Shown here: one piece after another, positions 287 through 9,414 of the stretch
How the letters are laid out: the number at the start of each line of letters is the position of its first letter
How positions within the stretch are numbered: position 1 is the first letter of the stretch
DNA from: Deltaproteobacteria bacterium
GTDB taxonomy: Bacteria > Desulfobacterota > Desulfobacteria > Desulfobacterales > ETH-SRB1
Assembly: GCA_030627475.1 (NCBI GenBank)
Contig: DAOURZ010000006.1
Location: 1 to 17,892 of the forward strand
Reading direction: 5' to 3'
DNA: 17,892 nt
Made by a program: the position numbers and the translations under genes
The notes under the pieces: generated by a model
The model's input: the letters and a program-made list of their open reading frames with translations, nothing else
The model's database searches: none
Told to the model about the DNA's origin: nothing

Positions 287-3200
287 ATGAGCCAAAATCA
301 AGAAAATATTACATTTAAATCTTTGATTAATCAAATTCCTCACAGGGATTGTGGAATAGATTGTATTGGATTGTCCGGATCTGATGCGGCATTTTTTGTA
401 TCAAGGTTGTATCCGGAACATGAAATGCCTTTGATTGTGATAATGCCTTCGCAAAAACAAGTCGAAATATTTATAAATGACCTGTCTTTTTTTATAAATG
501 AATTCGAACTGCATGTAACAGACTTTCCACCTTACAATATATTACCTTTTAAAAAACTGTCTTACCATAATGAAACAGCGGCAAAAAGGATCAGTACGCT
601 TTACCGGATTAGTAATGATGAATCGCCTTTAATTGTTGTTACTACTGTTAGCGCTCTTTTGCAAAAGCTTATTCCCAGACAGGAAATTTGCAACTATGCT
701 GAGCTTATTATGGCGGGTGAAGATATAGATCGTGATAATTTGATCGAAAAATTGATTTCCGGCGGATATGTCAGGTCAGCGATTGTAGAAGAACCCGGTG
801 ATTTTTGTATAAGAGGCGGCATTTTTGATATATTTTCTCCACTCTATCCGGATCCGCTCAGGATAGAACTTTTTGGAGATACAGTAGATTCATTGAGGTT
901 TTTTTCAGCAGCAACCCAGAGAACTGTAAAAAGTATCAGGGAAGCAGTTATTCTTCCGGCAAGAGAAGTAATTTTGAAAAAAGAATCTATGGTTCAAATG
1001 ATCAGCAGAATCAGACAGCAGGCATCAGAACTTGACATACCCGTAACCAAGGTTAGAGATATTGTTGACACTATCAAGAAGGAGGGAGTTTTCGCAGGAA
1101 TTGAAGGCTTGATCCCGCTGATTTATCCAAAGCTTGATACTTTTTTTGATTATGTTCCGAATAATGCAAATTTTGTTCTAATAGAACCAAAAAATCTTGA
1201 AAATATTGCCATTGAATCACAAGAGCAAACAAAAATAAACTACGAGAATGCCTGCATGGAAAAAAGGCTGTGTGTTGAGCCGAATTCTCTTTATCTGAGA
1301 TGGTTAGAGCTTAAAGAAATTCTTTTAAAAAACAAGCCGCTATCATTAAAGATGCTTCCTGTATTAAGCGAGAGCCGGGACAAGGGGATAACTTTTCCGC
1401 AGTATAATTTATCAGTGATAAACAACACCCCTATCAACGAGCAGCTTAAGTGTCGTCGTGGGGATGAGAAACAGTATTTGCCTCTAGCTGACTGGATTAA
1501 TGACAAGAAGCGTTTTGGATATACCACGGTTATTGTTTGCAGCAACAGGGCACGTGCCGGCAACCTGGAATCCATTCTTTCACCATATGGTATTCAAACC
1601 AGGTTTGTTGATAGTTTCCAGCATGTTGAACCCGACATAAATTGTGTTTATATATGTTATGGCGTTCTTTCATCCGGTTTTGTCATGCCCGATTTATCTC
1701 TCGCCATTATCACGGAAAATGAAATATTTGGAAAACAGCATAGAAAAGCAAAACACAGGCAGCCTATACAAGTTAAAGAGCTTTTATTTGAAGATCTGAA
1801 AAAAGGAGACTTTGTTGTTCATACAGAACACGGCGTGGGTAGATTTGATGGTCTGGTAAAATTGAAGATAAACGGAGCGACAAATGATTTTCTGCTTATT
1901 TATTACAGGAATGAGGATAAACTCTATCTTCCTGTAGAACGTATGAACATGGCGCAAAAATACATTGGAGTTGATGGAATACAGCCGATTCTTGACAAAA
2001 TGGGCGGTAAATCATGGGATCGAATTAAAAAAAGGGTTAAGAAATCGGTAGAGAAAATTGCCGGTGAGCTTCTCAAAATCTATGCAGAGCGTAAAGTTAA
2101 TAAAGGCTATGCTTATAAAGATATAGAAAGTTATTCCAGGGATTTTGAGTCCGGTTTTTCATATGAGGAAACAGATGGCCAGCTTAAGGCGATAGAGGAT
2201 GTGCTGCATGATATGCAGCAGCCAAGTCCGATGGACAGGCTGGTATGTGGCGATGTGGGGTACGGTAAAACAGAGGTTGCACTTCGCGCATCGTTTATGG
2301 CTGCGAATAACGGAAAACAGGTTGCTATACTGGTTCCAACTACAGTTCTTGCGGAGCAGCATTTTTTGACCTTTTCCGAACGATTCAAACATTATCCTTT
2401 TAATGTGTCATGCCTGAACAGGTTTAGAACTACAAAAGAACAGCGTGACATTATAAATGATCTCAAGACCGGCAAAATAGATATTATTATCGGAACTCAC
2501 AGACTTTTGCAAAAAGATGTAGATTTTAAAGATCTGGGCCTTTTTATTCTTGATGAAGAACAGCGTTTTGGTGTTAAGCAAAAAGAAAAGTTGAAAAAAA
2601 TAAGGACAACGATTGATGTTCTCGCATTAACAGCCACGCCCATACCCAGGACTCTTCAAATGTCCTTGCTTGGGATGCGCGACATAAGTATTATTTCAAC
2701 CCCGCCTGAACATCGCCATTCCATTATAACCTATATTGCGGAGTTTGATGATGTGATTATTGCGGAAGCTATAAGAAAGGAGTTAAAAAGGGACGGTCAG
2801 ATATTCTTTGTTCATAATAATATTCGTAATATATGGTCAATTGCAGAGCATTTAAAAAAACTGGTACCTGAGGTCCGGTTGAGTGTTGCGCATGGCCGTT
2901 TAAGCGAAAATGAGCTGGAAAGAGAAATATTTAAGTTTATGAAAAAAGAAATAGATATGCTGGTGTGTACAACTATAATTGAGTCAGGCATTGATATTCC
3001 TTCAGCCAATTCAATATTTATCAACAGGGCTGACAGGTTTGGATTGGCCCAGATTTACCAGCTTCGCGGTCGTGTTGGAAGAGCTGATGAGCAGGCATAT
3101 GCATATCTGTTTATTCCGGAAGAAAGCACATTGACTAAAGTTGCCAGGAAACGTCTTAAAGTGCTGATGGAGCATAGTGAGCTTGGGGCGGGCTTTCAAA

Positions 3201-3799
3201 TAGCCATGAGTGATTTGAAAATCAGGGGAGGCGGTACAATACTTGGTGCTTCACAGGCAGGTCATATCGCTGCGGTCGGATATGACACTTTTCTTGAGTT
3301 GATGAAAAATTCAATGTCTGAACTGAAAGGAGAAACAGTCGTAGAAAGTCTGGAGCCGGAGATTAACTTAACCCTCTCTGCTTTTATTCCTGAAAATTTT
3401 ATCCCTGATATTGATCAGAGACTTTCATTTTATAGAAGGCTGGTAAGGCTGACTGATTTAAAAGAATTATCCGACGGGAAGGCGGAATTGATTGATCGAT
3501 TTGGGGCTTTACCGGATGAGACTGCCAATCTTTTTTTAAAGATTAAGCTTAAGCTTTTATCCATAAAAGCTGGAGTAAAAAGGCTTGACCTGACAGGACA
3601 ACAGCTTTTACTTCGTTTTTCAACAATTCACCAAAAAAATTCCTTTGGAATAGTTGACATGATAGTTGCAAAACAAGATTGTTTTAAGGTTACACCAGAC
3701 CATATTTTTAAAGCCAGGCTTTCAGCAGGCAGTATAAAAAGTCTTTTAGTTCAGGTCGAAAATATCTTGAAAGAAATAGCCCTGCAGGTTAACGGATGA
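287..3799 (+). CDS. mfd: Transcription-repair coupling factor Mfd
   Basis: Mfd is an ATP-driven DNA translocase. It removes RNA polymerase stalled at lesions and recruits UvrA for nucleotide excision repair. At 1170 residues it has the family's usual full length. Visible parts in order are a UvrB-like N-terminal region (about 1-300), the RNA-polymerase-interacting CarD-like domain (about 500-570, with KKGDFVVHTEHGVGRF), Walker A GDVGYGKT (about 655), the DEEQ Walker B box (LDEEQRFG, about 755), the helicase C-terminal motor with GRVGRADEQ (about 930), and the C-terminal TRCF/D7 domain (about 1030-1130). The start ATG has only a weak ribosome site; a 7-codon reading frame beginning at 267 ends inside it (ATGA overlap). 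The stop lies just left of a recurrent repeat and an island. A diverged copy of the last 15 codons reappears at 8599. Confidence 0.97.
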   Translation: MSQNQENITFKSLINQIPHRDCGIDCIGLSGSDAAFFVSRLYPEHEMPLIVIMPSQKQVEIFINDLSFFINEFELHVTDFPPYNILPFKKLSYHNETAAKRISTLYRISNDESPLIVVTTVSALLQKLIPRQEICNYAELIMAGEDIDRDNLIEKLISGGYVRSAIVEEPGDFCIRGGIFDIFSPLYPDPLRIELFGDTVDSLRFFSAATQRTVKSIREAVILPAREVILKKESMVQMISRIRQQASELDIPVTKVRDIVDTIKKEGVFAGIEGLIPLIYPKLDTFFDYVPNNANFVLIEPKNLENIAIESQEQTKINYENACMEKRLCVEPNSLYLRWLELKEILLKNKPLSLKMLPVLSESRDKGITFPQYNLSVINNTPINEQLKCRRGDEKQYLPLADWINDKKRFGYTTVIVCSNRARAGNLESILSPYGIQTRFVDSFQHVEPDINCVYICYGVLSSGFVMPDLSLAIITENEIFGKQHRKAKHRQPIQVKELLFEDLKKGDFVVHTEHGVGRFDGLVKLKINGATNDFLLIYYRNEDKLYLPVERMNMAQKYIGVDGIQPILDKMGGKSWDRIKKRVKKSVEKIAGELLKIYAERKVNKGYAYKDIESYSRDFESGFSYEETDGQLKAIEDVLHDMQQPSPMDRLVCGDVGYGKTEVALRASFMAANNGKQVAILVPTTVLAEQHFLTFSERFKHYPFNVSCLNRFRTTKEQRDIINDLKTGKIDIIIGTHRLLQKDVDFKDLGLFILDEEQRFGVKQKEKLKKIRTTIDVLALTATPIPRTLQMSLLGMRDISIISTPPEHRHSIITYIAEFDDVIIAEAIRKELKRDGQIFFVHNNIRNIWSIAEHLKKLVPEVRLSVAHGRLSENELEREIFKFMKKEIDMLVCTTIIESGIDIPSANSIFINRADRFGLAQIYQLRGRVGRADEQAYAYLFIPEESTLTKVARKRLKVLMEHSELGAGFQIAMSDLKIRGGGTILGASQAGHIAAVGYDTFLELMKNSMSELKGETVVESLEPEINLTLSAFIPENFIPDIDQRLSFYRRLVRLTDLKELSDGKAELIDRFGALPDETANLFLKIKLKLLSIKAGVKRLDLTGQQLLLRFSTIHQKNSFGIVDMIVAKQDCFKVTPDHIFKARLSAGSIKSLLVQVENILKEIALQVNG

Positions 3800-3807
3800 G
3801 TGACTGT

Positions 3808-4008
3808 TCAGGAACGTGTGACGAAATAGCTTCCCACACTATGCATCACAGATTCAGACCGCCTTTGCCAAATCTCAAATCCCAGACATATTGAAATAGC
3901 TCGCTATTCCATCAACTTTTGTGATCTGTGCCCATATTTGAGATTTGGGCAAATTCGACCCAAATCTGTGCGCCTACTTGGGGAAGTTCATTCGTCCACA
4001 TTCCTGAG
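3808..4008. repeat. Imperfect palindromic element (about 200 bp) between convergent genes
   Basis: The two halves are inverted copies of each other. Nested arms include AGGAACGTG(T)GACGAA at 3810-3825 against its complement at 3991-4005, CTTCCC against GGGGAAG, CACAGATT against AATCTGTG, and AAATCTCAAAT against ATTTGAGATTT. At the centre, AATAGC-TC-GCTATT spans 3895-3908. The element lies between the stop of mfd and the 3' end of the convergent deaminase gene, whose last codons it supplies. Its RNA could fold into a long hairpin in either direction and act as a two-way terminator. It also resembles a miniature non-autonomous element. No transposase is present. Confidence 0.7.
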
Positions 4009-5448
4009 TATCAGATCGGAATACTCAGACATTTCAGCTTCAAATTTTTCAAAGCGAACGTCAAGAGAATTGGTTAATAAATCTTTATCACTTTCATAAA
4101 GAAAGGAATATTTAATGCTATTGTACACATACTTCTTCACCATTTTATAGCCTGGTTTATATCTTGCGGCTAACAAAACGTATTCGCCAGTTAAATTGTT
4201 CCTGGAAATTCCTGAATCGTCCGTACATATAACTATTGGGACATCATATGCAGAATATATTAGATAAGGGTGATCCCTGCCCTTAACTCCTAATATAAAT
4301 TCATTGCTGGTAAAACAGATTTCTACTACTGACTTCTCTTTGATTTCCTTCAACAGGTTAAGGGCTTCTTCTTCATAAGGCAAATCCACGCCATGCCCAA
4401 TCCTCTGAGCGCCAGCGATATATATAGCCTGAGAAATATGGAACTTCAGGTTTTTCGGGCGTACCATGCCAAGAGTAAGTTCACCCGCGTGTAATGCTCT
4501 GTTAACATTTGGGAATTTCTTTTTTAAGTATGCGAACATCTGCATGTGTAAATTGTAATCCTCAATTGCAACCACGCCATTTTCAGGGCCCACAATATTA
4601 ACACCTACTAAAAGATCGGATTGCTCAACAGCCTTAAATGCTGAATATAGAGCTGAAAACACTATGCTTGGTGAACTGTTTCTGGATGCATATGTTTGAT
4701 AACGCATCATAAATTGATCATCGTCTATACCCTTGTGAGCATTGTCAATTGTCTTAATGAACTCATAAACCTTATTATTAAACGTATCATCTGCGTCTAT
4801 TTTTGAAGATAGTTTGTCCAGAAGCAATAAAACAGCTTTATTGCCGGCAGCTTTTCTAATCTTTTGATCAAACGATGTGTCCGGATATGAATAACCAACT
4901 GACTTGAGCATGATCTCAATAAAGCTGACATTTTCTTTTATAGCCCGCTCTCTTAAAATCATTAGTCCTTCGTTGTAACGCTTTGAAATCGGCCCAAAAT
5001 AACTAAATGTATTAAAAAAACTGGCATCTGGCGGTAATTGTGGATGGTAATGGTTTTGGTAATCTTTGTCAGACCAAAGTGTTAACAGTTTTCTATAAAG
5101 CCTGGTGTCAGAACGTAATTGATCAACTGAAATACTACTGTTCGTCTTAGCCTTGCTGATATTAAGTGTGTTTTTGTCTATCCAATAACCAGCGACTTCG
5201 ACCCAATCTAAATATGTTTCCGCATAAATGCTTCCCGAATAGTGATTGTGTAAGTCTCCTCCCTTTGGCATTTTAGAAAAGAAAAGGTTAAGTTGAGCAG
5301 TATTCGGGGACTTTCCTTCAATCAATTCTTTGTAAAGCAATGCGGTCTTGTCTGCATTATCCGGATCAGAGTTCAATTTTATACCGATAGTTGAACATCC
5401 GACGATTGTGAAAATTACAACAATAAATATAGCTGATCTAAATTTCAT
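3988..5448 (-). CDS. Adenosine deaminase-family lipoprotein
   Basis: This predicted 486-residue lipoprotein probably deaminates adenosine or a related purine nucleoside outside the cytoplasm. The N terminus is a short charged start, a hydrophobic stretch (FIVVIFTIVG) and a lipobox ending at Cys18. Metal-site motifs of the family are present: PKGGDLHNHYSGS with His67 and His69, HAGE at 320-323, RIGHG with His352, and CTDD with Asp410/411. It is longer than cytosolic adenosine deaminases and closer in size to secreted ADGF-like forms. GGGGAG sits just before the ATG. The last residues RNVDE are encoded by the 3988-4008 repeat. The gene is A+T-rich, unlike the three genes upstream of it on the same strand. 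The substrate is inferred; a related amidohydrolase activity is possible. Confidence 0.87.
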   Translation of the reverse strand: MKFRSAIFIVVIFTIVGCSTIGIKLNSDPDNADKTALLYKELIEGKSPNTAQLNLFFSKMPKGGDLHNHYSGSIYAETYLDWVEVAGYWIDKNTLNISKAKTNSSISVDQLRSDTRLYRKLLTLWSDKDYQNHYHPQLPPDASFFNTFSYFGPISKRYNEGLMILRERAIKENVSFIEIMLKSVGYSYPDTSFDQKIRKAAGNKAVLLLLDKLSSKIDADDTFNNKVYEFIKTIDNAHKGIDDDQFMMRYQTYASRNSSPSIVFSALYSAFKAVEQSDLLVGVNIVGPENGVVAIEDYNLHMQMFAYLKKKFPNVNRALHAGELTLGMVRPKNLKFHISQAIYIAGAQRIGHGVDLPYEEEALNLLKEIKEKSVVEICFTSNEFILGVKGRDHPYLIYSAYDVPIVICTDDSGISRNNLTGEYVLLAARYKPGYKMVKKYVYNSIKYSFLYESDKDLLTNSLDVRFEKFEAEMSEYSDLILRNVDE

Positions 5449-5459
5449 ATACTCCCCTA

Positions 5460-5556
5460 TTAAGAGCCTATTTCAGTAGGCCATGCACGTATGGTTCGTG
5501 CCCTTCCAACTGGCCTTTTTGGTCGCGTTTAGTCGCCTACTGAAATAGGCTCTTAA
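5460..5556. repeat. 97-bp element with perfect 22-bp inverted ends (MITE-like)
   Basis: The left end (5460-5481) and right end (5535-5556) are exact reverse complements over 22 bases. They read TTAA followed by GAGCCTATTTCAGTAGGC, and the mirror image. The 53-base centre encodes nothing. The outer TTAA could belong to the inverted end or reflect a TTAA or TA target duplication. It lies between the stop of the helix-rich protein gene and the deaminase ribosome site. It may therefore work as a terminator of the upstream operon, and any deaminase promoter must lie inside it or be read-through from upstream. Confidence 0.8.
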
Positions 5557-5576
5557 TGGATGGCCCCATGCCCAAT

Positions 5577-6167
5577 TCAATCAGCCGTTTCTGAGTTTAC
5601 GAAATCGGAAATTTGAATTCGACTCAAGACCTTATTTAAAATAAAAATTCGGTCTGGCTGAGATAACGATGTCGCAAGATACAACGTAAGAGGTCGGGTT
5701 GCCTGGAATTGGCACAAGCGATTCCAAACCAAAAGCAGCCATGCTTGATACGGTGATACGGAATTTGGTAAGGGATTTTGCAATACTAACGCGGTTATTC
5801 CCTCGCACAGCTTGTCCTCGAAAAACTTGAGCCGTTCTTCGGCAGCAAGTAGTCGATCACGAAGAATTGCTTCAGATCGATCAAGAGCCTCTGCTGCCGC
5901 GACATTACGCGCCCGACGCAAAGTAGAGTGCGCCGGTCTGGTATCTCCCTTCCGCAGAGCGTCCATAGCCTTCAAGATGCGTCCTCGCAATGAGGATATC
6001 TCAGAACCTTCAGATAAGCGGAGTGAACTCATAGTTTTCTCCGCCTCTTCAAGCCACTTCAGTACATTGTCGGGGAAATTGACTTCTCCCCGCTGATACT
6101 GATCCATCAAGGGAGCGAAGGAACTCAGGCAAGCACTGATTTTTTCGATTTGAACGCAGAGAATCAT
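5577..6167 (-). CDS. Helix-rich protein of unknown function in the DUF2589 operon
   Basis: I do not recognise this 196-residue protein. It has no signal peptide and no membrane segment. Residues about 1-130 look almost wholly helical and rich in Glu, Arg, Ala and Leu (for example EEAEKTMSSLRL and LLAAEERLKFFEDKL), with coiled-coil potential. The C-terminal part is more hydrophobic with several Trp and Tyr. It starts 4 bases after the stop of the upstream gene. The ribosome site GGAG sits in that gene's last codons, so translation is probably coupled. A sampled stretch (5881-5940) has 38 G/C of 60, against 21 of 60 at 2521-2580 in mfd, which suggests a different origin. Confidence 0.8.
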   Translation of the reverse strand: MILCVQIEKISACLSSFAPLMDQYQRGEVNFPDNVLKWLEEAEKTMSSLRLSEGSEISSLRGRILKAMDALRKGDTRPAHSTLRRARNVAAAEALDRSEAILRDRLLAAEERLKFFEDKLCEGITALVLQNPLPNSVSPYQAWLLLVWNRLCQFQATRPLTLYLATSLSQPDRIFILNKVLSRIQISDFVNSETAD

Positions 6168-6171
6168 TATT

Positions 6172-7065
6172 CTACTCCGGTGTCAGTTTAGAGACTTGCT
6201 TTCCATCACATTCTTCAGTTACCCATTCCAGGCCTTCCTCATGCAAAACCATGTCCAGGCGGGTAACCGTATCCGATCCGCCACCAGTATTTTTAACATC
6301 AGCGGTGTTTACCGACACATAAAAATCAGGGGGGATGCTGATGGCTATCACAGTCTTCTTCTCTGCGGCATGGCGGACATTGTGGATCAGTCTAATAGTA
6401 ATTTCATGTCCCATCAGTTCCTGAATAGTTTTGTTAGCCCGTTCAGGATCAAGTTTACTGCCACGATCCATAGTTTTTTTGTAAATATATCCGGATATAA
6501 TTTCAGTCAAGACTTTGCGAACCACGTCTTCAGCCACTTGTCCGATTTTTTCCCGTAACGAGGCATCTGATGGGGTATCACCCTCCATTAGATTCAGATC
6601 GACATAGGCATTCTCTATGGCATCGGTGAGCTGTGTTTCAATACGTTGAAACACGTTTTCCTGTAGTGCTATATTCAGGATCTTTTCAAAACGACCGGTA
6701 AGTTCTTCTTCGCCCGGTTCGAATATAATTCTTTGTTGTTTTTTGAGGCTTTTTATGTCCGCAAATTGCTTCTTGGCACCGTCAATGGCTTTCTGCAAGT
6801 TATCGACGACCGATTTGGCTATGTCGATAGCTGGATTTCGTACAGCGGGCACAGCTGGGATAACCTCCGATATTATGATAGGAAGGCTAATGCTGACGTG
6901 TTTAATCCGCAATCTCGGGATCGGCATTCCTTTTAATAATTCATGCTGATTGTAATAATAAGCGATGCGCATGGCTTCCATGTCTGCCACACTGCGTGCG
7001 TAGGCCACCCCAGAAACCAAGCCGCCGATCACCTCTGAAAATCGATGTTTATGCGGGTTGTCCAT
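6172..7065 (-). CDS. DUF2589-partner protein, unknown function
   Basis: This 297-residue protein has no recognised enzymatic motif, signal peptide or membrane span. Its N terminus carries an IGG motif followed by an Ala-rich helix (residues 11-35), then MPIPRLRIK at 47-55 leading into a short hydrophobic beta-like stretch. The same order (IGG, Ala-rich helix, LPVPYITIK, beta strand) occurs in the neighbouring DUF2589 protein, which suggests distant kinship. A lysine- and alanine-rich helical middle (about 75-125) follows, then a more globular C-terminal half ending in a strand-rich segment. GGAG lies at proper distance before the ATG. A strong hairpin separates it from the DUF2589 gene, and the helix-rich protein gene follows at 4 bases. 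Confidence 0.82.
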   Translation of the reverse strand: MDNPHKHRFSEVIGGLVSGVAYARSVADMEAMRIAYYYNQHELLKGMPIPRLRIKHVSISLPIIISEVIPAVPAVRNPAIDIAKSVVDNLQKAIDGAKKQFADIKSLKKQQRIIFEPGEEELTGRFEKILNIALQENVFQRIETQLTDAIENAYVDLNLMEGDTPSDASLREKIGQVAEDVVRKVLTEIISGYIYKKTMDRGSKLDPERANKTIQELMGHEITIRLIHNVRHAAEKKTVIAISIPPDFYVSVNTADVKNTGGGSDTVTRLDMVLHEEGLEWVTEECDGKQVSKLTPE

Positions 7066-7087
7066 ATTTCAAGCTCCAGTAATGATG

Positions 7088-7119
7088 AAAGTCACTGGGC
7101 GTATCCGCCCAATGACTTT
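7088..7119 (-). promoter_or_regulatory. Intra-operon RNA hairpin upstream of the partner gene
   Basis: Arms 7088-7101 and 7106-7119 form a 14-pair stem around a 4-base loop. As minus-strand RNA every position pairs, with one U-G wobble. On the plus strand the same position would be a C-A mismatch. This fits a structure used in the operon transcript. No U-tract follows, so a processing, stability or translation-tuning role between the DUF2589 gene and its partner is more likely than full termination. A weaker second pairing (TTAGTTCG near 7140 with CGAATTA near 7166) lies upstream on the transcript. Confidence 0.6.
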
Positions 7120-7213
7120 TCGATAATAGTAAATGGTGATTAGTTCGATCAGCGCAAGCTATAAGCGAATTAGTTATGGCGTTTGCTATGGAATTGCCCC
7201 TCCCACTATAAGA

Positions 7214-8011
7214 CTATAGCTTAATATCAAGGCTCTTATTGATGATGCTTTCCGGCGGTGCAGTGTCCAGAGTTATTGTGGCAGGTACAGCGGCTGCAGT
7301 GTCTGTAGCGGGTGTAGCGGGTGTGGATTCCACTACTTTGTATGTAGTGCCAGCGTACTCGAAGGTGTTATCCGCCTTGATCAAAGAGAAGTCTGCGCAG
7401 TCGACAGTGATCTTTTTATCAGTTGAATTAAGGGTAGTTACCACCGCTCCGCAAGTCAGCAGTTTGTAGGCGGTTTTCTCCTGAATGCTGTTTTCCAGCA
7501 AGGTGAGAATACGTTCGGTGCCGGCGGGCATGTCTTGGTTAGCGGCCTCCACTCGTACATGCATATCAAAGGTGCGTTCCTCCTTATCCGAGGAAGCCGT
7601 CGTTCGCTGGTATGAGGTTTTGGAAGTCACTTTTGCGGATGCGAACCAGAAACCACCGCCCGCTGAGGCATCCACCTGCTGTTGGAAGTTGCTTGAAGTA
7701 TTCGATTCGGTTGTCGAAGTAATCTTGGCGTTGAATTCAATAACTGCGTTTTTGATGGTAATGTATGGCACAGGCAGCATGGTGATAAAAGGCAACGTCA
7801 GAGTAAATTCCTGGTCGCTTCCATCATCATTCTTACGATTGTAAGTAAAATCAACATTGACGACCTTGCCATCTTTGTCGAACCCGACTTCCTTGATGAA
7901 GTTGGCGGTGCTGATTGCAGACTTAGCTTGAGATTCAACAATGGCATTCAGTGGGCCACCGATCAAATTGGCAAAGTCTAAACTGGCTAATTCTTTTCCT
8001 GATACTGGCAT
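7214..8011 (-). CDS. DUF2589 family protein
   Basis: This is a 265-residue member of the DUF2589 family, whose function is unknown. Family hallmarks are visible: an N-terminal LIGGPLNAIVESQAKSA segment (16-32), a strand-rich FTLTLPFITMLPVPYITIK (69-87) leading to IEFNAKI, a Gly/Ser/Thr-rich middle (SAGGGFWF and the KTSYQRTT region), and a DMPAGTERILTLLENSI motif near 165-180. The last 80 or so residues are an extra beta-rich, Ala/Pro/Thr-rich tail beyond the usual family core. No signal peptide or membrane span is seen. AGGAGG lies 8 bases before the ATG, an excellent site that suggests high expression. It is the first gene of the island operon. A repeat copy (8036-8050) lies directly upstream of its ribosome site. 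Confidence 0.9.
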   Translation of the reverse strand: MPVSGKELASLDFANLIGGPLNAIVESQAKSAISTANFIKEVGFDKDGKVVNVDFTYNRKNDDGSDQEFTLTLPFITMLPVPYITIKNAVIEFNAKITSTTESNTSSNFQQQVDASAGGGFWFASAKVTSKTSYQRTTASSDKEERTFDMHVRVEAANQDMPAGTERILTLLENSIQEKTAYKLLTCGAVVTTLNSTDKKITVDCADFSLIKADNTFEYAGTTYKVVESTPATPATDTAAAVPATITLDTAPPESIINKSLDIKL

Positions 8012-8035
8012 GATGTTATCCTCCTAATTGAGTTA

Positions 8036-8050
8036 AGGAACGTGGACGAA
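8036..8050 (+). repeat. Boundary repeat copy C (AGGAACGTGGACGAA)
   Basis: Exact 15-base core, identical to the copy at 8644-8658. It lies about 10 bases upstream of the DUF2589 ribosome site and faces the inverted copy at 8585-8599. The pair brackets the non-coding block 8051-8584. Confidence 0.75.
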
Positions 8051-8352
8051 CTAACGATATTGATATTTAGACATGTACACTAAAAAATAGTTTCTTGAAT
8101 ACATCTTAGGGCTACCAACGTAAGACTGGACAGCCTGTAAATTGAATCAGTTAGCAACTCATAAGATTTTGCTTGATTGTGAAATTACCATGTGGAAAGT
8201 GTCCCGCTTTAAGTTGGCAGTCGAGTCGAGTCAATTAAATTTTTAAAGCAAGGTTTGTGCCGTGATTCAATAAAATCTATAGTAACGAAGGTATTCATGT
8301 ATAATATAAATAGGTTGGAAAATAGTTTTATAAAAGGATAGTAATAAGAAAT
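8051..8352. other. Non-coding stretch upstream of the DUF2589 operon
   Basis: About 300 bases of A+T-rich DNA with no credible reading frame. It must carry the promoter of the minus-strand DUF2589 operon unless transcription starts in the 112-bp repeats. The best minus-strand candidate I see is TTGACT, 16 bases, TTAAAG near 8210-8240, which is weak. A TATAAT at 8300-8305 on the plus strand lacks a matching -35 box. No RNA gene is recognised. Confidence 0.4.
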
Positions 8353-8456
8353 GGCTATTTTTTGCAATATGCCAAAAAAGTAAAGGTCTTTTATAGAAAA
8401 AATAATCGTACTACTTACTGCGAAGGGAAACTTTTAATAATGTGCAAATTGCAATA
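8353..8456 (+). repeat. 112-bp period tandem unit, copy 1
   Basis: This is the first of two nearly identical non-coding units. It runs from GGCTATTTTTTGCAATATGC through TAAAGGTCTTTTAT and CTTACTGCGAAGGGAAAC to GTGCAAATTGCAATA. Each unit has inverted ends (TTGCAATATGCA against TGCAAATTGCAA) and an inner AAAAGT/ACTTTT pair, so it could fold as one hairpin. Direction and function are unknown. It could be a small RNA, a protein-binding array or a miniature element. Confidence 0.7.
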
Positions 8457-8465
8457 ATATATTTC

Positions 8466-8568
8466 GGTATTTTTGCAATATGCAAAAAAAAGTAAAGGTC
8501 TTTTATGGAAAAAATAATCGTACCGCTTACTGCGAAGGGAAACTTTTAATAATGTGCAAATTGCAATA
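8466..8568 (+). repeat. 112-bp period tandem unit, copy 2
   Basis: Second copy, offset exactly 112 bases from the first through most of its length (for example TAAAGGTC at 8381 and 8493, and the terminal GCAATA ending at 8456 and 8568). Differences are a few substitutions and short A-run changes. The two copies are separated by 9 bases. It keeps the same inverted ends as copy 1. Confidence 0.72.
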
Positions 8569-8584
8569 TAGGATATCATCCCGA

Positions 8585-8599
8585 TTCGTCCACGTTACT
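8585..8599 (-). repeat. Boundary repeat copy D (inverted)
   Basis: The reverse complement reads AGTAACGTGGACGAA, one base from the core. It abuts the duplicated mfd terminus that starts at 8599, marking the right boundary of the island. Confidence 0.7.
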
Positions 8600-8676
8600 T
8601 AGTTCAGGTCAAAAACACCTTGAAAGAGATAGACCAGCATGTTAGGAACGTGGACGAATTAACTTCTCCCTCGTAA
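8599..8676 (+). pseudogene. Remnant copy of the mfd 3' end
   Basis: Bases 8599-8643 match the mfd terminus 3746-3790 at 38 of 45 positions. The frame is kept: it reads LVQVKNTLKEIDQHV, against LVQVENILKEIALQV in the intact gene. It continues through a boundary repeat (RNVDE) to a TAA at 8674-8676, which lies in the loop of a TCCCTCG/CGAGGGA hairpin. There is no start and no upstream homology, so it is a fragment. It could be a leftover of the original mfd end, displaced when the island arrived, or a duplication carried by the element. Confidence 0.8.
8644..8658 (+). repeat. Boundary repeat copy E (AGGAACGTGGACGAA)
   Basis: Exact core, placed directly after the mfd remnant and followed by TTAACTTCTCCC. 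It resembles copy A (3810-3825, then ATAGCTTCCC), which follows intact mfd. The unit mfd terminus plus repeat is therefore duplicated in direct orientation about 4.85 kb apart. Confidence 0.75.
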
Positions 8677-8683
8677 CGAGGGA
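8667..8683. terminator. Short perfect hairpin after the mfd remnant
   Basis: TCCCTCG and CGAGGGA pair perfectly over 7 bases around a TAA loop. No T-run follows on either strand, so it is at best a weak terminator or a relic of the old mfd 3' region. It lies 14 bases upstream of the lipoprotein gene. Confidence 0.35.
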
Positions 8684-8697
8684 ACAAACCGTGAACC

Positions 8698-9414
8698 ATG
8701 CATGAACCGTTACTTTATTATTTAATGAAAACATTCTGTAAGCTATCTTCAATATTAACAGTTTTATTGATTTTATCTGTATTGTCAGGTTGTGCCGAAC
8801 CTGAAGACAGACATGAGAATGAATATCTGATTCGGGTCGGCGAAAGAATTACGACTATAGATGATTTTAACATGGCTTTCGAGATAGTAAGGGCAGCTTA
8901 TCCTTATAATGCATTGAAGAGTTCAGCGTACTTGAAAAAAGCCCGGTTAAGTCTCTTGAATCAGTTAATTGAACAAATGATTATTCTGGAGAGAGCCGGA
9001 GAGCAAAATATCTGCATTTCCGATTCAGAGGTTGAAGAGGTTATAGCGGGGATAAAAAAAGATTATCCTGAAGGTGAATTTGACAGGACGTTACTTGAGT
9101 ATGCTATATCATATCAATTCTGGAAAGAGGCATTAAAGAATCGCTTGCTTATAGAAAAAGTTATCATAGCGGAGTTGGAGGAAAAAGTTGTAATAACTCC
9201 GAAAAGTATATCGGAATATTATGATAGAAATTATGATAGATTTTTTTTAAATTTTGATTCAAAAGAGGGTTCGTCAAATATGAATGAATTTCTTATAAAG
9301 CACCTACGTAAAGAAAATGCTGAAAAAGCTTATAATGGCTGGATTAAAAAACTCAGAAAAAATTCTAAAATTGAGATAAACAGAGAGCAATGGGAAAAAA
9401 TTAATTGTGGATAA
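8698..9414 (+). CDS. SurA N-terminal-like lipoprotein (periplasmic chaperone-like, no parvulin domain)
   Basis: This predicted lipoprotein of 238 residues has a signal segment ending in the lipobox LSGC. A SurA/PpiC-type helical chaperone core follows (LNQLIEQMIILERAGEQNICISDSEVEEVI, split here as LNQLIEQMII then LERAG and ISDSEVEEVI). Its C-terminal end (YNGWIKKLRKNSKIEI) matches the tail of the SurA fold. The roughly 100-residue parvulin domain that normally lies between these is missing; only KSISEYYDRNYDRFF and a short linker remain. It is therefore probably a chaperone without isomerase activity. ATG at 8725 (MKTFCKLSS) gives a more typical signal peptide and may be the true start; neither start has a clear ribosome site. 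It overlaps the next gene by 8 bases. Confidence 0.82.
   Translation: MHEPLLYYLMKTFCKLSSILTVLLILSVLSGCAEPEDRHENEYLIRVGERITTIDDFNMAFEIVRAAYPYNALKSSAYLKKARLSLLNQLIEQMIILERAGEQNICISDSEVEEVIAGIKKDYPEGEFDRTLLEYAISYQFWKEALKNRLLIEKVIIAELEEKVVITPKSISEYYDRNYDRFFLNFDSKEGSSNMNEFLIKHLRKENAEKAYNGWIKKLRKNSKIEINREQWEKINCG

Follow-up and report, generated by a model that had tools for sequence, protein, structure and literature searches.

A second mfd 3' end enclosed by two MITE ends downstream of mfd in a Desulfobacterales genome

Results

Four genes and several MITE sequences lie between mfd and a surA-like gene

We analysed a 17,892-nucleotide stretch of DNA (the window) in which an interval with four genes and several MITE sequences separates an intact mfd from a surA-like gene. 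The features, with their strand where one applies, are:

287-3799, plus: mfd, intact, with its own terminus and stop (Pfam TRCF, DEAD, CarD_TRCF_RID)
3747-3791, plus: source segment of the duplication, from TA (3747-3748) to TA (3790-3791)
3810-4005: El1, full-length palindromic MITE of 196 bp, from genome matches and hairpin fold
3988-5448, minus: adenosine deaminase-like gene (PF00962)
5459-5557: member of a second MITE family, 99 bp, 23-nt perfect inverted ends
5577-6167, minus: 196-aa protein, third gene of the DUF2589 trio
6172-7065, minus: 297-aa protein, second gene of the trio, in the same order at G155
7214-8011, minus: DUF2589 protein, first gene of the trio (PF11655, E 1.6e-28)
8036-8055, plus: solo MITE end, with TA at 8034-8035
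8584-8599, minus: solo MITE end, left edge of the mfd fragment, adjoining TA 8600-8601
8600-8644, plus: decayed copy of the mfd 3' end, TA to TA
8644-8669, plus: El3, solo MITE end of about 26 nt, right edge of the mfd fragment
8675-9414, plus: native upstream region and surA-like gene

As a first-pass annotation had stated, the four genes within 3988-8011 are all on the minus strand, opposite to the backbone. The deaminase-like gene has a start that looks lipoprotein-like by eye, matches adenosine deaminase families in NCBIfam below their cut-offs and the CARF-ADA model in PADLOC, and ends inside El1, which encodes its last residues (RNVDE) and stop; six of the seven homologues fetched terminate at the position of this R, and the closest, P0043, ends differently. 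Neither this gene nor the DUF2589 gene was found in the seven congeners searched, and the latter is present in 1 of 8 genomes of the genus and 8 of 291 of the order, the own genome being included in both counts. The 196-aa protein has no Pfam match and a 25% match at G155 in the same gene order. For the 297-aa protein, we found 42 related proteins at E <= 0.001 (itself included) and one weak match each in NCBIfam and PADLOC (E 0.01-0.1). Relatives of this protein were absent from the plasmid records and the viral collection searched, two plasmid records carried a distant DUF2589 relative, and phage records gave no near match to 3700-8750. The single Rfam match was a tRNA at 82-154.

The second mfd end is a piece of mfd between two MITE ends

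The last mfd codons at 3746-3791 recur at 8599-8644 with 85% identity over 46 nt and a start-to-start spacing of 4853; compared from TA to TA, the copies are identical at 38 of 45 bases and keep the mfd reading frame. A whole-genome search with 3736-3800, in which all 8 candidates were scored, placed the two sites in the window at E 4e-28 and 1.8e-8 and returned otherwise only 15-17-nt matches (E 0.4-0.8), with no third copy, confirming the previously described match in the same orientation and frame.

Only two of the seven differences are silent and the other five change residues (E/K, I/T, A/D, L/Q, Q/H), contrary to the earlier description of them as mainly third-position or conservative. 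The divergence between the copies (7/45, 15.6%) resembles the fourfold-site divergence from the closest relative, G005 (13-22%); therefore, an origin of the two ends in different strains or species, as had been suggested, is possible and not needed. A segment of 45 bp is insufficient for a tree. The fragment at 8600-8644 forms the loop of a 76-nt hairpin (z -4.8) and is probably without function and decaying.

Both edges of the fragment are TA dinucleotides that directly adjoin MITE ends. The same short repeat does follow both copies, as had been noted, directly at 8644 and 18 bases later at 3810, but it is a dispersed MITE end and not a local sequence. We conclude that the second mfd end is a piece of mfd enclosed by two MITE ends and involves no attachment site. 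Genomic islands that integrate at gene 3' ends carry a duplicated 3' end in direct orientation around their cargo, a configuration also seen here, and the first-pass annotation had likened the interval to a cassette that inserts into the 3' end of a housekeeping gene and restores or replaces its terminus. We disfavour this integrase-type explanation, with the mfd 3' end as attachment site, and regard it as extremely unlikely: the edges are MITE ends on TA with no shared core site, so that the limits of the 38/45 match are set by MITEs, the copies differ in their downstream spacing (18 bases before the repeat versus none), and, as already remarked in that annotation, no integrase is visible, in that no integrase family matched in the four cargo genes, two of which have no Pfam family above cut-off.

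The repeat is the end of a high-copy, TA-inserting MITE

The repeat after both mfd ends (AGGAACGTGGACGAA) is one terminus of a palindromic MITE that inserts at TA and occurs in high copy. In this genome we counted 292 ends compared with 9 for a reversed control; the 8 genomes of the genus carry 3 to 1101 ends each, and the family is also present in records labelled EthSRB1 and C00003106. Of 201 own ends, 163 had TA in the expected register and 42 had it at a control position four bases further out; for the 310 ends from other records, the corresponding counts were 294 and 75. At the level of elements, for which the registers were picked after inspection of paired ends while the end-by-end control was run separately, TA flanked both sides in 76 of the 101 elements from other records; the 31 own elements comprised 13 with TA on both sides, 13 with partial TA, and five with TA on neither side. 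Among paired ends less than 1 kb apart, 39 of 42 were spaced by 32-209 bp (modal spacing 182), a count that excludes four further pairs 3.9-9.4 kb apart, and the elements are short and non-coding with inverted terminal repeats.

In each of the two own-genome match searches, 40 first-look candidates were scored, out of 147 and 224, respectively, and the 101 stretches from other records were chosen for an exact match to the MITE-end pattern. Because the 94 own contigs were picked for listed MITE matches, counts from them describe these contigs and are not genome-wide. The end sequence had no match in a full-text literature search, the 22-base pattern had no exact match in the viral collection, and plasmid records contained no El1 relative.

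El1 has at least 45 matches in the genome, itself included (best 40 of 147 first-look candidates scored), and folds as a single hairpin of 196 nt (-69.6 kcal/mol, z -7.9); its flanks are CA and GA, not TA. Unlike an intact element, 8036-8599 retains family sequence only at its two ends (20 and 16 nt).

The junction in relatives has neither island nor second mfd end

In G001, G002, G003, and G005, mfd is followed by surA without the island or a second mfd end, and from 8675 onwards the window again matches G005, in native sequence preceding the surA-like gene. The expectation of the first-pass annotation for island-free relatives was thus largely borne out: in these four genomes, none of which carries both copies, mfd leads to surA. 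It was not borne out in G004, where mfd is followed by other genes and by neither island nor surA. Also expected was a terminus in relatives like that of the 8599 copy, and this holds in part. The mfd end is readable in six relatives (G001-G005, G007). At three of the seven differing sites, all six share the base of the 8599 copy and the intact mfd differs, and at a fourth site five of the six agree with the fragment; at the three other sites it is the intact copy that has the base of all six, indicating that both copies have drifted.

Over the 45 bases, the intact terminus is closest to G005 (4 differences, compared with 6 to 9 for the other five relatives), and mfd is 93.7% identical to G005 in nucleotide sequence over its last 2.3 kb. 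Judged by sequence, the intact terminus does not look imported. This bears on the possibility that an intact mfd end, El1, and the cargo arrived together from a related strain by homologous recombination, with crossovers in mfd and in a MITE that left the resident mfd end behind as the fragment. The four sites at which the fragment sides with the relatives speak for such an import, which we nevertheless consider unlikely, since the intact copy has the relatives' base at the other three, the divergence of mfd from G005 makes no jump to a distant source, except in a tail of low similarity to each of the five relatives compared, and the divergence between the copies fits decay within the lineage.

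Nor do the junctions suggest a composite transposon: the outer flanks are CA at 3810 and TA at 8599, which is no matching target duplication, and these flanks are not adjacent in G001, G002, G003, or G005, so that no contiguous empty site was seen there. None of the six relatives with a readable mfd end has a MITE inside it.

We also considered that contigs of two strains were joined at a repeat during assembly of a strain mixture. The genome is in 483 contigs, and 18 of 202 examined MITE ends of this genome are at contig edges, as such an artefact might produce; it is nonetheless improbable, in that the MITE end at the critical joint has just 16 nt, below the usual assembly word length, El1 is at most 84% similar to longer copies among the matches listed (91% over shorter stretches), and 2 contigs are listed for the 297-aa cargo protein, the longest having 51,421 bases and the second known from the listing alone.

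No comparable duplication or transposase was found at other MITE ends

We compared the flanks (up to 90 bp) of 200 own and 308 other MITE ends, each with its own contig or stretch only, yielding 7 own and 25 other rows. Two own rows were the window itself; of the remaining five, four were inverted and one was a 28-nt match. Among nine flanks followed up, there was no comparable duplication: L152 consists of two similar genes in tandem, L132 gave a weak match of 44 nt, and L099 matches five places, while L139 (two flanks) and L149 had 37 to 341 matches per database, presumably to the MITE itself, and L086, L128, and L270 had 12 to 18. The follow-up left out L217, L271, L075, L078, L101, L115, L127, L164, four of five L128 rows, and one of two L086 rows. 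We therefore treat the mfd case as a single event. At L161, what seemed an mfd end joined to a MITE proved to be a different gene whose 3' end carries a MITE.

No transposase was recognised by eye in the reading frames of five MITE end pairs 300-3000 bp apart in the contigs examined. A DDE_3 transposase was not found in G000, and of 11 DDE_3 loci in the genus, one had a single similar end and none a pair; thus, the DDE_3 loci searched revealed no autonomous element with matching ends of the kind expected for a MITE derived from IS630/Tc1-mariner.

In reversed-end (alternative) transposition, known from maize Ac/Ds, a transposase pairs the outward-facing ends of neighbouring elements and copies host DNA between or beside them. 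The position of the fragment between outward-facing MITE ends with TA at both edges is what this mechanism would leave. However, outward-facing intervals of up to 600 bp numbered 11 in own and 19 in other contigs examined, and in a comparison covering these contigs the interval with the mfd fragment was the only one seen to copy a neighbouring gene end; 3 of the 11 and 12 of the 19 had a match elsewhere in these contigs, and these matches, the window aside, were short stretches or multi-place repeats, not classed gene by gene. As no transposase was found either, we consider this origin very unlikely. The corresponding general idea, that neighbouring MITE pairs in the genus could be used by a transposase in reversed orientation, copying and boxing host gene ends, is highly doubtful; if true, it would give bacteria a way to duplicate DNA in tandem and capture gene fragments, of which the mfd fragment would be a frozen product.

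Discussion

On balance, we lean towards reading the interval as a scar left downstream of mfd by several MITE events, with the fragment generated by MITE recombination. Specifically, two MITEs would have entered the terminal codons of one mfd copy, at TA sites separated by 43 bp, and recombination between MITE copies would have joined that copy to one with an intact mfd and El1 behind it, located on a sister chromosome or in a related cell. The product would be intact mfd, MITE, 45-bp fragment, MITE, and surA. Foreign DNA may then have been placed between MITE ends by further insertion or recombination, with the deaminase and the DUF2589 trio arriving separately, and a MITE transposase, if any, may have acted in trans or since been lost. 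We infer this order of events, as a single genome cannot reveal the sequence of steps.

This reading is supported by the extent of the fragment from TA to TA of mfd with a MITE end on each side, by a divergence between the copies like neutral divergence, by the excess of ends of a TA-inserting family over the control, by the remnant ends of 8036-8599 and the termination of the deaminase frame in El1, and by the island-free mfd-surA junctions in four relatives. Counting against it are the lack of a MITE in the relatives' mfd ends, the non-TA flanks of El1, the failure to find a transposase with matching ends, and the own elements with partial or no TA. The whole interval looks like ordinary DNA shuffling by MITEs and not like a novel cassette type, and a plain mechanism takes the place of the new mode of integration that had been suggested.

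Correia/NEMIS of Neisseria and RUP of Streptococcus pneumoniae are short, non-coding, TA-inserting MITEs with inverted ends and many copies (PMC2229807). The present MITE, likened to these by features and not by sequence, is similarly short (mostly under 210 bp) with inverted ends, TA at the ends, and many copies, but it folds as one long palindrome, reaches up to 1101 ends in one genome, and was seen with no matching-end transposase. Unlike 3'-end islands, the interval has MITE ends as boundaries and no matched integrase; and it differs from MITE-bounded or MITE-recombined genomic segments in that two MITE ends enclose 45 bp from the end of a host gene. In this genus of Desulfobacterales-type MAGs the family is dense, and shuffling involves repeats, gene ends, and acquired modules alike; MITEs also rewrite the C-termini of neighbouring proteins, as exemplified here by the deaminase.

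Duplication of the mfd 3' end between two TA sites

The first-pass annotation had read the mfd 3' end and its second copy as the footprint of a cassette; the observation was confirmed while this interpretation was supported in part only. The features concerned are:

287-3799, plus strand, mfd (intact source of the duplicated end, 3747-3791)
3810-4005, El1, full-length copy of a palindromic MITE
3988-5448, minus strand, deaminase gene
5459-5557, second MITE
5577-8011, minus strand, DUF2589 three-gene operon
8600-8644, decayed copy of the mfd end (the fragment)

All four genes between the copies are on the minus strand, as had been described. A repeat search of the window returned 3746-3791 and 8599-8644 (85% over 46 nt, spacing 4853) and, from TA to TA, 38 of 45 positions are identical with the mfd reading frame kept, documenting that the duplication is real; two of the seven differences are silent and five replacing. 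The concern that the 8599 match might be no better than chance was removed by a whole-genome search with 3736-3800, which recovered both window copies (E 4e-28 and 1.8e-8) and no third, the remaining matches being just 15-17 nt long with E 0.4-0.8 (8/8 candidates scored). Homology begins and ends at two TA sites: the fragment reads CGTTACT-TA-GTTCAGG on its left and CATGT-TA-GGAACG on its right, and the mfd source CTTT-TA-GTTCAGG and CAGGT-TA-ACGG at the same places. In the simplest reading, two MITEs would once have entered both TA sites of one mfd copy, and the DNA between them would have persisted.

A MITE family that inserts at TA

The sequence AGGAACGTGGACGAA is the terminus of a palindromic element family, with 292 matches in the own genome when two mismatches are allowed (167 on the forward and 125 on the reverse strand) versus 9 for the reversed pattern. 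In the own contigs examined, 39/42 paired ends less than 1 kb apart were spaced 32-209 bp, with modes near 35, 68, 109, 182 and 195 bp; lone ends are frequent (60/202 own ends examined). El1, which folds into a single hairpin (z -7.9), had to be entered manually in the paired-end list, its left end being too diverged. Two registers, TA-GGAACG and TA-A-GGAACG, were set after looking at end flanks; they correspond to a single, slightly asymmetric element read in its two orientations. TA occurred in either register at 163/201 own ends and 294/310 ends in other records, compared with 42/201 and 75/310 for a TA four bases further out. It was present at both flanks of 13/31 own and 76/101 other elements, in part at 13/31 and 25/101, and at neither flank of 5/31 and 0/101. 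Therefore, we conclude that the family inserts at TA, like the RUP and Correia elements, for which such insertion is described (PMC2229807).

At up to one mismatch, ends numbered 205 in the own genome (G000) and 1101, 3, 10, 61, 317, 79 and 15 in its congeners G001 to G007, respectively; the reversed control matched only once across all eight genomes, in G005. The 1101 ends of G001, in 3.5 Mb as against 3 and 10 in G002 and G003, are a burst specific to that lineage. Among the matches listed, the records that bear names are MAGs assigned to Desulfobacteraceae, Desulfobacterales and Deltaproteobacteria; some carry the label EthSRB1 and one C00003106. Relatives of these MAGs are probably ANME partners. 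Judging by match positions, G001 is JABZFQ01 and G006 JAFDFV01.

Empty sites in relatives and the two mfd ends

Relatives without the island had been expected to carry mfd, then sequence of the 8644-8697 type, then surA. The succession of mfd and surA holds for G001, G002, G003 and G005, where mfd leads to surA genes with neither the island nor a second mfd end, but not for G004, in which an intact mfd end is followed by other genes, with neither island nor surA. In G003 the small surA-like gene is also gone except its end; the G007 contig stops shortly past mfd and that of G006 upstream of the mfd stop codon. In the closest relative, G005 (mfd differing by 6.3% over the last 2.3 kb), homology to the window restarts at 8675, shortly past the 26-nt MITE end; the G005 intergenic stretch is itself ~100 bp longer and therefore an imperfect image of the ancestral site.

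The fragment has the base of 6/6 readable relatives at three of the seven differing sites and of 5/6 at one more, and the intact copy that of 6/6 at the other three; drift has been about equal in both. The fragment differs from the intact end by 15.6%, and fourfold-site divergence from G005 is 13.9% in mfd, 13.4% in surA and 21.7% in mgtE; fragment divergence thus resembles neutral decay. The earlier proposal was that the ends come from different strains or species; a different species may be involved, but these figures do not require one. The intact mfd tail is nearer to G005 than to four other relatives compared, with the last bases before the stop more like G001-G003 than like G005.

Cargo genes

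The deaminase gene has a GC content of 0.37, close to the genome sample (0.388), and the DUF2589 trio one of 0.45-0.48; they seem to have been acquired separately, and the second MITE, at 5459-5557, lies between them. Searches of the seven congeners (completeness 74-99%) found neither the deaminase nor the DUF2589 gene; DUF2589 occurs in 8/291 genomes of the order, own genome counted. The deaminase is 84% identical to a homologue named from Desulfobacter curvatus. Its frame closes with RNVDE and a stop, both encoded by El1, whereas six of seven fetched homologues stop at the position of the R and the closest, P0043 (96%), ends differently (RSSLFP); therefore the window deaminase has a MITE-written C-terminus. 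Consistent with the earlier remark that no integrase is visible, profile searches matched none of the four genes to an integrase or transposase family. The operon at 5577-8011 has the same gene order in another genome, G155, and partly in G142.

Proposed origin of the island, and its other repeats

The island is MITE-bounded and probably MITE-recombined, of a kind already known. TA edges and MITE ends are present, four relatives have empty sites, the cargo genes searched for were not found in congeners, and the two mfd ends have diverged as by neutral decay. We suggest that two MITEs inserted into mfd, that unequal or inter-strain recombination between MITE copies followed, and that the cargo then came to sit between MITE ends. 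Rearrangement is supported by the stretch 8036-8599, where the family is reduced to 20 nt at one end and 16 nt at the other and other repeats lie inside. Among outward-facing intervals of up to 600 bp in the contigs examined (11 own, 19 other), the one with the mfd fragment was alone in being seen to copy the end of a neighbouring gene, and the followed-up rows of a MITE-flank scan gave no second comparable duplication; we therefore treat the event as a single accident.

The element at 5459-5557 belongs to a separate MITE family, whose inverted ends are perfect over 23 nt and which has relatives in own and related contigs; its flanks, by eye, suggest that it too inserts at TA and shares the one-base asymmetry of the main family. 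A third dispersed repeat, CTACCAACGTAAGGCGGGACA ... GTCCCGCTTTAAGTTGGTAG (8110-8224, ~120 bp), recurs in several own and related contigs, and at 8359-8568 a ~99-nt stretch stands twice in tandem (95% alike, spacing ~112). Finally, 8243-8487 is 72% similar to an intergenic stretch elsewhere in the genome (G000:C129:4853-5098), flanked by response regulator-like and NtrC-type regulator-like genes (by eye), and is possibly another copied host fragment.
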